A DNA stretch of 38,923 bases, taken from assembly GCA_020722065.1 (NCBI GenBank), contig DYLK01000023.1:1-38923 (forward strand). The letters run 5' to 3'. A model generated the notes under the pieces. It saw only the letters and a list, made by a program, of their open reading frames with translations, ran no database searches and was not told the DNA's origin. The DNA is from Melioribacter roseus (GTDB lineage Bacteria; Bacteroidota; Ignavibacteria; Ignavibacteriales; Melioribacteraceae). The translations under genes and the position numbers were made by a program. Below, piece after piece: positions 21,391 through 25,507 of this stretch. Every line of letters begins with the position of its first letter. Within the stretch, counting starts at the first letter, position 1.

Positions 21391-21687
21391 ATGAAAATGA
21401 AAATTAATAAAAGCATCTATAAAATCACAAGAATTGAACCGCTCGAGAATTTCAGACTTTTAGTGGAATTCTCGGATGGTTTTTCGAACATTCTTAATCT
21501 GAATAAAATGCTAAAACACAAAGATTTTGCTTCAATAACTTCATCTGAAGAATTCAAAAAGGTTTTTATCAATAAAAAGGGTGATATTCAGTGGGAATGT
21601 GGGGCTGAAATCTGCAAAGTTTCAACTCGCAATTTGTTGGAAATGATTAAAGATGTTTCAAACCTAAAACTTCCAATAAACGTATGA
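21391..21687 (+). CDS. DUF2442 family protein
   Basis: Small protein of about 98 residues with the DUF2442 pattern: ITRIEPLENFRLLVEFSDGF, then LNLNKML (the 'L.V.FSDG....ldl' core) and a terminal acidic/aliphatic segment (DIQWECGAEICKVS). The family is of unknown function. It is often found beside DUF4160 in small mobile gene pairs that look like toxin-antitoxin modules, but no DUF4160 gene is present here. The start is taken as the ATG at 21391; an ATG at 21397 and a TTG at 21388 are in the same frame, and no clear ribosome-binding site favours any of them. Its stop overlaps the ATG of the next gene (ATGA), so it leads the coupled run that follows. Confidence 0.8.
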   Translation: MKMKINKSIYKITRIEPLENFRLLVEFSDGFSNILNLNKMLKHKDFASITSSEEFKKVFINKKGDIQWECGAEICKVSTRNLLEMIKDVSNLKLPINV

Positions 21688-22049
21688 AATACTTTCTACA
21701 CTTTTTTGTTTTGTTTTCCACTTTATTTGCCCAAAATGAATTTTCACATTGGGAAGTTAATTCTAAAATAAAAACAGAATTGATTTCATCCGCAAAAATG
21801 AACTTGTTTGTAAAAATATATAAGACAGCAATTTCCGATTATGATGGAGATAATTGCAGATTTTCTCCGACTTGCTCCAATTTCTTTTTGGAAAGTACCC
21901 GAATAACCAATTTTTTTGAAGCTAATTTGATGTTTGGAGACCGTTTTTTGCGAGATATTAACATTCTGAATTCTGATGAATACGAAAAAAACGAAAGTGG
22001 ATTTTTAATTGATTTTCCCAAATCTCGAATTTTCAGAAAAGATAACTGA
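21684..22049 (+). CDS. YidD-like protein with N-terminal signal peptide
   Basis: Protein of 121 residues. The core IYKTAISDYDGDNCRFSPTCSNFFLEST (about 44-71, written here only to show the C-x-F-x-P-x-C-S motif) matches YidD, the small membrane-associated factor that assists YidC in membrane protein insertion. Two features differ from classic YidD. A signal-peptide-like stretch, MKYFLHFFVLFSTLFAQ, precedes the domain, implying export or anchoring. The third conserved Cys, in the usual LLRCHP, is replaced (DRFLRDINIL). It therefore looks like an extracytoplasmic relative and not the housekeeping yidD. ATGA overlap with the preceding gene and TGATG overlap with the following one indicate translational coupling with two LPG-domain proteins. 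Confidence 0.75.
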   Translation: MKYFLHFFVLFSTLFAQNEFSHWEVNSKIKTELISSAKMNLFVKIYKTAISDYDGDNCRFSPTCSNFFLESTRITNFFEANLMFGDRFLRDINILNSDEYEKNESGFLIDFPKSRIFRKDN

Positions 22050-22900
22050 TGAAGTATTTTCTTAAATTTTTATTCATTTTCGCTTTTTTTACTGAATTTG
22101 GCTTTTCTCAAACAAATTTCTTTGATTATGAAAATCGTTTAAAATTTGCTAAAAATTTATTCAAAGAAAAAGATTACATTCGTTCGTTAGATGAATTTAT
22201 CGAACTTTCCAAAATCAGCTCGAATGATAGTCTGAAATTATGGTCAGCAATTTCATTAAGAAAAATGGAAAGATTTACAGAATCCGAAATTTATCTCAGA
22301 ACATTATTCGGCTTTTCTAATTTGGAAGATGAAGCCAAAACTGAGTTTTTTCGATTAAAATTTTTAACGGAAAAAGCAGACGAATTCCAAAAAAATTACG
22401 AAAACGAAGAACTTCATCCTGAAAAATATCGGTTGGAATTACTCCGACTTAAATATTTTTCTCATCTATTTTTAGATGGAAAATTGCCCGATTCAACAAA
22501 ATTCATTAATTCGTTCAAAAAAGAAAATCAGCCGGCAATTGCAAAATTCTACAACGAAAGAAAATATCGAATTGAAAAGAATTCCCAAAAAGCTGCTATC
22601 TTTTCGGCAATTTTGCCAGGTTTAGGAAAAATTTACACTGAAAATTACAGCGATGCAATAACATCTTTTCTTTTTACAAGCATTTTTTATGGACTTTCAG
22701 CATATAATTTTTCAAACGATTCCGTTTGGAAAGGAGTAATTTTTGCTGGAATTGGAGCTTATTTTCACGCAAGCTCAATTTATGGTTCGGCAGTTGCGGC
22801 ACAGCATTTTAACGCTCAGCAAAAGTTTGAATATGAACTTCGATTGAAAAAATATGCCGAAACAAACAACACATTTTTACCAAATTTTGAACCGAAATGA
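22049..22900 (+). CDS. signal-peptide protein with helical repeats and C-terminal LPG hydrophobic domain (DUF5683-like), copy A
   Basis: Function unknown; 283 residues. Signal peptide 1-20 (ends GFSQ). The middle (about 25-180) is charged and helical and may be TPR-like: FAKNLFKEKDYIRSLDEFIE, then SLKLWSAISLRKMERFTES. The C-terminal part (about 180-262) starts with FSAILPGLGKIYTENYSDAI and continues with two or three hydrophobic segments ending YGSAVAAQHFN. This LPGxGxxY... entry is typical of DUF5683/TM2-like membrane hairpins. The next gene encodes a protein of the same plan, so the two are probably an old tandem duplication. Its start overlaps the YidD-like stop and its stop overlaps the next start (ATGA). 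Confidence 0.75.
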   Translation: MKYFLKFLFIFAFFTEFGFSQTNFFDYENRLKFAKNLFKEKDYIRSLDEFIELSKISSNDSLKLWSAISLRKMERFTESEIYLRTLFGFSNLEDEAKTEFFRLKFLTEKADEFQKNYENEELHPEKYRLELLRLKYFSHLFLDGKLPDSTKFINSFKKENQPAIAKFYNERKYRIEKNSQKAAIFSAILPGLGKIYTENYSDAITSFLFTSIFYGLSAYNFSNDSVWKGVIFAGIGAYFHASSIYGSAVAAQHFNAQQKFEYELRLKKYAETNNTFLPNFEPK

Positions 22901-23709
22901 AAAATCTTTTCATAATTATTAATCTCGTTGCAATTTCAATTTTTCCGCAGATAGCCAAGCAAAAACAACTTGCAGATTCACTTTTTGCTTCCGAAAATTT
23001 CTACCAAGCCATAACTGAATATAAACGTTTACAATTTTTTGATATTCAGAATTTATACGAAACTTTTACAAACTCGCAAATTGCTAAAGCATACAAAAAA
23101 GGTAAATTTTATCAAAAATCTGAAGAATATTTCCGAAAAGCCATTGAAAGTTCTATTTCAACTGAAGAAATAAATAATCTTAAAATAGAATTGGTGAAAA
23201 TTTTTATCATCAAAAAAGAAAAGCAAAAAGCTCTTTCTCTGCTTGATTCTTTGGGAAAATCGCATTTTGAAAAAAATCAACTTGATTATTGGCGAGGTTG
23301 GACTTTTCTTTTTAATTACGATACAAAAAATTCCTTGAAATATTTTAAGCAAAGTGAAATAGCAAAATCAATTGTTGATAGTTTGGAAATTCTACGGAAA
23401 AAGGAATATTCGCCAACTTTTGCTAAAATTTCTTCCGCAATTTTGCCTGGTTTCGGACAATTTTATACTGGAAATATTACTTCTGGATTAATTTCTCTTG
23501 GTTGGAATATTTTACTTGGGGGAATTTCTGTAAATGCTTTTCTTTCTGATAGAATAATCGAAGGAATTTTGGTTACTGATTTGCTTTGGCTTCGTTTTTA
23601 TAGAGGGAATATTCATAACGCCGAGCAATTTGCATTTGAGAAAAATGTTAAATTAGCAGACAATTTATTAAAGAATTTGCAAAATAATTACAAAGGTGCG
23701 TTACCGTGA
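22897..23709 (+). CDS. signal-peptide protein with helical repeats and C-terminal LPG hydrophobic domain (DUF5683-like), copy B
   Basis: Function unknown; 270 residues. A short hydrophobic N-terminus (MKNLFIIINLVAISIFPQ) is followed by TPR-like helices (about 20-165: SLFASENFYQAITEYKRLQF; KGKFYQKSEEYFRKAIES) and the domain starting ISSAILPGFGQFYTGNITSG near residue 178. It aligns with copy A through the end of the hydrophobic region (GNIHNAEQFAFEKN here against YGSAVAAQHFNAQQ there). The 'SAILPGFGQFYTG' form is the more canonical of the two. ATGA overlap with copy A and GTGA overlap with the ACT gene place it in the middle of the coupled run. Confidence 0.75.
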   Translation: MKNLFIIINLVAISIFPQIAKQKQLADSLFASENFYQAITEYKRLQFFDIQNLYETFTNSQIAKAYKKGKFYQKSEEYFRKAIESSISTEEINNLKIELVKIFIIKKEKQKALSLLDSLGKSHFEKNQLDYWRGWTFLFNYDTKNSLKYFKQSEIAKSIVDSLEILRKKEYSPTFAKISSAILPGFGQFYTGNITSGLISLGWNILLGGISVNAFLSDRIIEGILVTDLLWLRFYRGNIHNAEQFAFEKNVKLADNLLKNLQNNYKGALP

Positions 23710-24137
23710 AATTTTCAGAAGAAGAATTAAGACAAATCGCCTTGAATGCGATTAATGAACTTGGCGAAAAAGCATCGCCAGAATTGGTAAAAAAAATAGT
23801 TGCAAAAGCTGTTGATGAATCTCAAGAAAATGTGGATTTACCAAAATCAGAAACAAAAGTTGGTTTTGATAGAGCAATTTTAACTTCTTTCGGTTTAGAT
23901 AGACCTGGTGTGGTGGCAAAAATCACGAATCTATTATTCGAGGCAAATTGCAGTTTACAAGATATTTCGCAGAAAATAATGGGCGATTTCTACACAATAA
24001 TTATGATTGTCGATTTATCATCAGGCAAATATCAAATGAAAGAATTAGATGAAAAACTACAAGAAATTGCAAACGAAATGAACATCAAAATTTTTTTGCA
24101 ACACGAAAATATATTTAGACAAATGCACAGAATTTAA
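23706..24137 (+). CDS. ACT-domain regulatory protein (UPF0237-like) with N-terminal extension
   Basis: Protein of 143 residues. The C-terminal ACT domain (about 55-143) begins [20 protein letters not shown], where the Gly-Val after Arg-Pro is the usual ligand loop, and runs through [23 protein letters not shown]0237 proteins are about 90 residues and lie next to PFL/DUF711 genes, as here. This one has about 50 extra N-terminal residues ([36 protein letters not shown]) that look helical. The start is GTG, overlapping the stop of copy B (GTGA). ACT domains bind amino acids or similar small ligands; the ligand and the output here are unknown. Confidence 0.88.
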
Positions 24138-24145
24138 GGAATAGT

Positions 24146-25507
24146 ATGAATTACGAATTTGATGAAATATTGTCCACAATAAAAATGACAGAAATTGAGC
24201 ATTTTGATATTCGAACAGTTACACTTGGAATCAGTTTGCTTGATTGCTACGACAGAAATCTTGATGTCGCAAAACAAAAAGTTTACGATAAAATATATAA
24301 ATACGGCAAAAATCACGTAAAATATGCCAAAGAAGTAGAAGATAGATACGGCATTTCCATCGCAAATAAACGAATTTCGATTACGCCAATTTCAATTCCA
24401 TTTGCTGGATTAAATCGATATGAATTTATCGAAATGGCAAAAGTTCTCGATAAAGTTGCCGAAGATATTGGAATTGATTATTTGGCTGGATTTTCTGCAT
24501 TAGTTCAAAAAGGTTTTACAAATGGCGACCGCGAACTTATTGAAGCAATTCCTATTGCTCTTTCGCAAACAAAAAGACTTTGTTCGAGCATAAATATCGG
24601 AACAACAAAAGCTGGGATTAATATGGACGCAGTAAACAAAGTAGCGGATTTAGTCAAAAAAACTGCGGAATTAACAAAAGAACAAGATTCAATCGGTTGT
24701 GCAAAATTTGTTGTTTTTATGAACGCAGTTGAAGATAATCCATTTGTAGCTGGAGCTTTTCACGGAGTTTCTGAACCCGAAGTAGTTTTAAATGTTGGAA
24801 TTAGCGGTCCTGGGGTTGTTCTTGATGCAATAAAATCAGCGGGAAATGTAGATTTACAAACACTTTCTGATGTAATTAAAAAAACTATTTTCAAAATAAC
24901 TCGTGCAGGCGAACTAATTGGACGCGAAGTTGCCGAAAAACACGGAATCCCATTTGGAATTGTTGATGTTTCGCTTGCGCCAACTCCCGCAGAAGGCGAT
25001 AGTATTGCAGATATTCTAAAAGCAATGGGAGTCGAAGATGTCGGAGCGCCCGGCACAACTGCTGCTCTTGCAATGTTAAACGATGCTGTTAAAAAAGCAG
25101 GAATGATGGCGAGCAATTCTGTTGGTGGATTAAGTGGAGCTTTTATTCCAGTTAGCGAAGACCAAGGAATGATTGCCGCTGTCCAAAAAGGAAATTTAAG
25201 TCTCGAGAAGTTGGAAGCAATGACTTCTGTTTGTTCTGTTGGATTGGATATGATTGCAATTCCAGGCGATACACCAGCGTCAACAATCGCGGGAATTATT
25301 GCCGACGAAGCTGCAATTGGTATGGTTAATGACAAAACAACTGCAGTAAGATTAATTCCAGCTTGGGGGAAAAAAGTTGGAGATGTTGTAGATTACGGCG
25401 GATTACTTGGTTTAGCCCCAATAATGGAAGTAAGAACAATCAGTAGTCAAGGTTTTGTTAGTCGCGGCGGAAAAATTCCAGCACCGAAACGAAGTTTGAC
25501 AAATTAA
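24146..25507 (+). CDS. PFL (DUF711/UPF0210) family protein
   Basis: Protein of 453 residues, the family's standard length. Characteristic stretches are [20 protein letters not shown] near the N-terminus, [20 protein letters not shown], and [20 protein letters not shown]. Further on are ENPFVAG-like [39 protein letters not shown] and [20 protein letters not shown]. The fold is related to pyruvate formate-lyase/ribonucleotide-reductase-type barrels, but the catalytic Cys-Gly radical features are not evident and no activity is established. It follows the ACT gene by eight bases, the conserved pairing for this family, so the ACT protein probably controls it or binds its ligand. It is convergent with the glycosyltransferase gene, whose stop is eight bases away. 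Confidence 0.95.

Follow-up and report, generated by a model that had tools for sequence, protein, structure and literature searches.

Is the YidD-like gene on contig DYLK01000023.1 of Melioribacter roseus (assembly GCA_020722065.1) the ordinary YidD of this bacterium, or does it belong, together with the two genes that follow it, to a system of its own? The window, that is, the whole analysed stretch of 38,923 nucleotides, comes from a draft genome of 2.38 Mb (G000; genomes and loci are cited below by G and L numbers). It contains three consecutive plus-strand open reading frames (ORFs), here called Y, T1 and T2 (Table 1); Y is the YidD-like protein, and T1 and T2 each combine a signal-like N-terminus with tetratricopeptide repeat (TPR) helices and a hydrophobic C-terminal segment that opens with SAILPGxGxxYT (the LPG domain). 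This layout had been proposed in a preliminary description of the window, and the ORFs and their overlapping junctions, TGATG for Y/T1 and ATGA for T1/T2, bear it out. Canonical YidD aids YidC from the cytoplasmic side; Y-T1-T2 is a conserved, tightly packed unit in the Ignavibacteriales that is separate from canonical YidD. The exported-type YidD lineage and its partner system look like a part of the cell-envelope machinery that has not been described before; no description of a unit of exported YidD and TPR-LPG proteins was found in the open literature, with subscription papers and preprints lying outside the search. The accessible part of a Leptospira study that names YidD together with LolA concerns yidD and lolA transcripts only, and not this unit. 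If one lineage of YidD is indeed exported and has partners of its own, the YidD domain would act not only at the cytoplasmic face of the membrane but also at the opposite one.

Y appears to be an exported-type YidD with a signal-like N-terminus, distinct from the ordinary YidD of the same genome. It matches Pfam YidD (PF01809) with 40 bits (cut-off 27, E 3e-10) and NCBIfam TIGR00278 with 41 bits, barely above the cut-off of 40; copies that pass this threshold so narrowly, the window’s Y among them, are probably misnamed as YidC helpers. With canonical YidD (PF01809, TIGR00278) it shares the YidD domain, conserved R residues and the first two cysteines of C-x-F-x-P-[TS]-C, which reads CRFSPTC in Y. 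Unlike canonical YidD, Y carries a signal-like N-terminus, is coupled to TPR-LPG genes, falls on the other side of the YidD tree, and lacks the C-terminal GG-x-DPVP in an alignment with E. coli YidD; the third cysteine, whose loss had already been remarked in the preliminary description, is replaced by Asp (D91), and the same position holds D in 61, C in 2 and E in 1 of the 64 named cassette YidDs.

The start of Y is not mis-assigned, because its 132-aa frame opens only 11 codons above ATG 21684, which is the first start in the frame, and because the near relative L134 has the same MKYFL start region. Of the named cassette copies with the motif, 63/63 have a hydrophobic stretch that precedes the first Cys by 35 residues or more, versus 0/48 distinct canonical copies (of 58 canonical loci, eight were unread by the filter and two were duplicates); an earlier, looser rule for signal-peptide hydrophobicity had no canonical control, which the stricter rule has. 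The first Cys is preceded by 63-88 residues in these 63 cassette copies, versus 23 in most of the 48 canonical ones and 30 in E. coli. Q17, immediately past the hydrophobic stretch, is Q in 50/52 aligned rows; since an N-terminal Gln after signal peptidase I is, in the accessible part of the source, a trait of Bacteroidetes yet not of the entire FCB group (PMC5837995), this residue is taken as a hint only. The structural model of Y (pLDDT 78) has a helix at residues 2-14; a fold search with this model returned nothing meaningful (best E 3.1), and a sequence search found no solved YidD structure.

The draft genome does hold a second, canonical yidD, for which the preliminary description had proposed to look, at C39:16404-16595, scoring 105.7 bits versus 40.9 bits for the cassette copy. 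The expected location near rnpA and yidC holds for E. coli K-12, where yidD sits between the two, and not for G000: neither gene was recognized by eye within the 9 kb read around the canonical copy, whose neighbors are an unrelated ORF and, on the opposite flank, an MCE/ABC-transport set (also by eye). According to the accessible parts of two articles, YidD supports YidC during the insertion of proteins into the inner membrane (PMC3573977), and the order of yidD relative to rnpA and yidC has been described (PMC10502375). Among 57 genomes of the family Melioribacteraceae, a low-scoring, cassette-type YidD was found in 53, a canonical one in 52 and both in 49; the four genomes without the cassette type are 68-89% complete. 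Four of the five family genomes without canonical YidD carry the cassette type (G125, G129, G137, G160), and a loss of canonical yidD is possible in G129 (98% complete). At least two YidDs occur in 23 of 25 genomes checked, and the two with a single YidD, G263 and G268, are the very members of the order that lack a full-length T2. In a phylogenetic tree of YidD domains all canonical copies, including one each from Spirochaetota, WOR-3 and Chlamydiota carriers, fall on one side of a single branch (support 100/97) and the cassette copies on the other. This unrooted tree comprises 93 domains, i.e., 53 cassette rows and 40 canonical rows (39 distinct genes, L226 being the same as L332), several of them long; nine cassette rows were dropped by the motif filter (L235, L236, L271, L274, L287, L289, L291, L292, L293), and only the main split is used here because the alignment has just 85 columns.

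The overlaps alone do not define a unit, because the chain of overlapping genes runs past the cassette into its neighbors, from an upstream DUF2442 gene (ATGA with Y) to a downstream ACT-domain gene (GTGA with T2); conservation defines it. For the same three genes a fixed stoichiometry had been deduced from the start/stop overlaps; these are real, yet they do not by themselves imply it. Y, T1 and T2 follow each other in this order in 11/11 other genomes of the family, in G109 from another family, and, as the preliminary description had suggested looking for, at 63/68 named loci of a public-genome scan, many of which represent the same genomes as the 11 family genomes. The remaining named loci are four that are cut by contig ends (L160, L187, L191, L193) and one from Chlamydiae (L201) in which T precedes Y. 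Counted from first starts, a choice that biases the counts toward overlaps, gaps of at most 40 bases were found for Y-T1 in 59/63 and for T1-T2 in 61/63 loci, with overlaps in 37 and 39, respectively; at three named loci, 557-784 bases separate Y from T1. As a control, eight regions around other YidDs (L046-L053; the YidD ORF was recovered in seven) contained no T1 or T2 match at E 1. Compared with L134, a metagenome-assembled genome labelled Melioribacter roseus whose T2 shares 90% identity with the T2 encoded in the window, dN/dS is 0.34 for Y, 0.12 for T1 and 0.16 for T2; judged by these ratios, purifying selection is acting on all three genes.

Beyond the family, 197 genomes of the class Ignavibacteria yielded a strong full-length T2 in 20/20 family members and in 10/12 other members of the order, and scattered full-length copies elsewhere (G109, G220, G203, G292, and a weaker one in G273); a looser tally at E 0.001 counted 175/197 genomes, mainly through matches that are weak and partial. 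A search of 296 genomes from across the phylum added G105, G218, G006, G378 and G409, each with a T1 match below E 1e-16. Four phyla were sampled in depth, namely Bacteroidota, Spirochaetota, Chlamydiota and WOR-3, and YidD occurs beside T in all four. T-like proteins were detected in 76/198 Spirochaetota genomes (E 1e-9), in 60/79 Chlamydiota genomes (E 1e-5, some of them TPR-only) and in 93/120 WOR-3 genomes (E 1e-6, some weak). YidD was near T at 15/20 hand-picked Spirochaetota loci (two of them divergent) and, among the 15 best-scoring loci of each phylum, at 14/15 in Chlamydiota and 13/15 in WOR-3; some misses lie at contig ends, and the 16-bit YidD match of L260 was scored as absent. The unit varies in composition and order: Y accompanies a single T in L233, L234 and L236; T and YidD are divergent in L268, an ambiguous case with a lipobox-like start; and in Chlamydiota T precedes Y (L201, L312-L321), with L320 having T without Y. 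The chlamydial T proteins show a lipobox-like start in 6/11 cases by rule and in more by eye. L114, from a genome of another family (G203), has Y, T1 and T2 of Ignavibacteriales type, which suggests a transfer of the whole unit into G203; a stray contig is possible, because this assembly has 6% contamination.

T1 and T2, described early on as paralogs, match each other in a profile-profile comparison with 99.9% probability (E 1e-31); by this comparison and the tree of T rows described below, they are old paralogs. The AlphaFold2 model of T2 (pLDDT 93.8) is all helical, with an N-terminal helix, TPR helices to approximately residue 170, the LPG segment, a hydrophobic helix at 194-216 and a long helix at 220-264; its tandem helix-turn-helix solenoid, together with TPR matches in PDB, identifies T2 as a TPR protein. 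The PDB matches of the T2 model and of the A4 profile are TPR proteins in general, with one fold match below E 0.001. Periplasmic TPR scaffolds such as PilF, BamD, MamA and PorW/SprE have the solenoid in common with the T proteins; the matches are weak, far below family cut-offs, and amount to general TPR likeness, and the T proteins differ in their C-terminal LPG segment and their YidD neighbor. The short SAILPGxGxxYxG segment of T1 and T2 recurs in DUF5683 (PF18935, function unknown), yet just 23-25 of its 151 positions match, the scores (21.3 bits for T1, and 16.7 bits) stay below the cut-off of 26.7 required for membership, and the TPR part is an addition of T1 and T2. In a quick tree of 75 T rows (SH-aLRT support only, several long rows), 24/28 T2 rows group together with support of 98 in a set that spans Bacteroidota, Spirochaetota and WOR-3, and 25/28 T1 rows lie in a less well supported set (88) that also holds three T2 rows and four single-T Spirochaetota rows; given these two sets, the duplication seems, in most lineages, to predate the current distribution of the genes.

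In several genomes the components, or additional ones, are fused. YidD, TPR and LPG parts form a single ORF in two Bacteroidota genomes (400 aa in L232, 427 aa in L116), and in L254 a LolA-like part (HMM E 2e-7) and YidD form one 364-aa ORF that is followed by T1 and T2. A 489-aa ORF in L263 (4455-5924, minus strand) joins, in frame, what by eye is a barrel-like exported protein to a second signal-like stretch and YidD; whether this is a fusion or a mis-read start is unclear. A LolA-like gene lies directly upstream of Y and overlaps it (first-start ORFs) at 11 of 145 loci, i.e., 4/102 in Bacteroidota, 2/21 in Spirochaetota, 5/11 in WOR-3 and 0/11 in Chlamydiota; named loci and G-numbered regions often share genomes, and the 145 are therefore loci and not independent genomes. 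When the profile of this gene family (A9) was compared with PDB, all five sequences reached (up to E 5) carried LolA-type names, at E 2e-4 to 0.07. The likeness to carriers of the LolA superfamily (PF03548, DUF4292) consists of weak profile matches, the family lies outside the window’s cassette, and its assignment to LolA is weak and uncertain. At 10 of the 11 loci (the exception being G378) the LolA-like gene is preceded by a small membrane protein, sm, which was detected in 10 of 33 genomes, exactly the ten that have the LolA-like gene and sm at the cassette; extra copies away from the cassette occur in G751 and G564. The sm domain (L304, L305, L306, L339-L358) exists in several copies with varied N-terminal parts, which by eye are CsgG/LpoB-like and LSm-like; certain WOR-3 genomes have sm proteins that end in Cys/Ser/Gly-rich tails.

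The preliminary description had envisaged a dedicated extracytoplasmic or membrane complex. As a conserved and dedicated unit this idea is upheld, because the gene order, the joint absence in two of 12 order members, the fusions and the related histories of T1 and T2 all point to it; the complex itself is a step beyond the gene data. The reading preferred here, tentatively and with somewhat less than even confidence, is that Y, T1 and T2 form an exported, membrane-attached complex that assists hydrophobic or lipidated clients, with a mechanism that we infer as follows. The C-terminal hairpins of T1 and T2 would anchor in the membrane and leave the TPR part in the periplasm, where the TPR arms could serve as docking surfaces; the YidD domain would be held at a periplasmic membrane surface, whether that of the inner or that of the outer membrane, and would help hydrophobic or lipidated envelope clients to enter, to leave or to cross between membranes; and in some lineages a LolA-like carrier may deliver or collect such clients. 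A more elaborate version is rather doubtful: a hitherto undescribed machine for envelope biogenesis, in which an ancient, exported branch of the YidD family acts at the periplasmic face together with TPR-LPG proteins as anchors and, in some cases, with a LolA-like carrier, and inserts or hands on hydrophobic or lipidated proteins, the small multi-copy membrane proteins among them. As caveats that weigh against the preferred reading, T lacks a nearby YidD at five of the 20 Spirochaetota loci, some of them on short contigs; the cassette YidDs of the chlamydial loci L201 (5743-6126) and L274 have none of the conserved cysteines, and their chemistry therefore need not match that of YidD; and the LPG helices may not span the membrane, because their hydropathy is modest (KD19 about 0.9-1.3). 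Where the carrier is concerned, no LolA-like gene accompanies the cassette in the Ignavibacteriales loci, including the window, or in any of the 11 chlamydial loci; neither of the Pfam models LolA and DUF4292 reaches its cut-off in the member shown, the best E over the 11 being 2e-4; and hhalign scores the family at 9% against E. coli LolA, versus 15% for an unrelated control.

Other explanations share part of this evidence. Y and T could form a receptor or release site for the LolA-like carrier in lipoprotein or lipid trafficking, for example in place of LolB; the overlap of the LolA-like gene with Y in three phyla, the fusion in L254 and the LolA-type names of every PDB sequence reached fit this view, but the sub-threshold Pfam scores, an hhalign result not above its control and the lack of a LolA-like gene at 134/145 loci (by the clustering used), among them those of the window’s own order and of Chlamydiota, leave it an unlikely account. 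A sorting system with the sm proteins as clients would explain why sm is confined to the genomes that have it at the cassette, with extra copies in two of them, as well as its multiple copies, variable N-terminal parts and partly Cys/Ser/Gly-rich tails; yet sm was not found in 23 of the 33 genomes, each of these 23 being a carrier of Y with T, and copies per genome are few, so that such a role is improbable. The assembly of a secretin for type II secretion or a pilus draws on Chlamydiota, where a GspD-type secretin gene was present in 11/11 regions opened and a match lay within approximately 3 kb of T in 15/15 genomes, and on PilF, one of the general TPR matches of the T2 model; this role is weakened by eight of 62 tested genomes, all of them carriers, that have no secretin match, and is distinctly improbable.

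The preliminary description had thought of proteins related to type IX secretion, and the marker domain SprA_N was indeed present in 20/20 Bacteroidota genomes tested; however, these include 18 with and two without the cassette, the latter being G263 and G268, and SprA_N was absent from 15/15 Spirochaetota and 15/15 Chlamydiota carriers (one of them, G653, with YidD divergent from T). With 30/30 carriers of these two phyla lacking the marker, type IX assembly is excluded as the general role and we regard it as very improbable altogether, although a lineage-specific link within Bacteroidota could exist. SprA_N was also found in 11 of the 12 WOR-3 genomes tested, G459, G824 and G741 among them. 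The plainest alternative, that Y is the sole and ordinary YidD, with its start misplaced and its neighbors unrelated, had been named from the outset as the case that would speak against a separate system, and the name YidD is what NCBIfam would assign to Y. It is rejected, and hardly credible, in view of the canonical copy elsewhere in the genome, the position of Y on a separate side of the tree, the conserved gene order, the fusions, and the export-like N-terminus that separated 63/63 cassette from 0/48 canonical copies.

Table 1. Features of the Y-T1-T2 cassette, in positions of the window.
Feature	Position	Strand	Basis
Y, exported-type YidD paralog, 121 aa	21684..22049	+	PF01809 and TIGR00278 scores; kept beside T1/T2
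Y, N-terminus resembling a signal peptide (residues 1-16, up to ...LFA|Q)	21684..21731	+	Model helix 2-14; KD19 peak 1.29; Q17
Y, CRFSPTC motif, C58 and C64	21855..21875	+	C at both positions in 51/52 rows of alignment A7
T1, TPR and C-terminal LPG domain, 283 aa	22049..22900	+	A2/A4 alignments; tree; TPR structure matches (A4 profile)
T1, SAILPGLGKIYT motif, start of hydrophobic domain	22604..22639	+	S186, P190, G191, G193, K194 and Y196 invariant in 13/13 rows
T2, TPR and C-terminal LPG domain, 270 aa	22897..23709	+	AlphaFold2 model; PDB TPR folds; A3/A8 alignments
T2, SAILPGFGQFYT motif, start of hydrophobic domain	23434..23469	+	P184, G185, G187 and Y190 invariant in 51 rows

A reading of the cassette as a defense system was rejected, a PADLOC scan of four proteins having matched none of its anti-phage families. 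Downstream of the cassette, at 23706-25507, the ACT-domain gene (GTG start) is followed by a 453-aa PFL/DUF711-like gene, both named by eye; the corresponding clusters comprise 74 and 72 Bacteroidota loci, respectively, and no loci of other phyla. The upstream gene at 21388-21687 matches DUF2442 (PF10387) with 27.8 bits against a cut-off of 23.9 and shows a weak match to the DhiA antitoxin; a protein cluster of small relatives, judged similar by eye, has members at 30 of the 102 Bacteroidota loci, some of which represent one genome twice.

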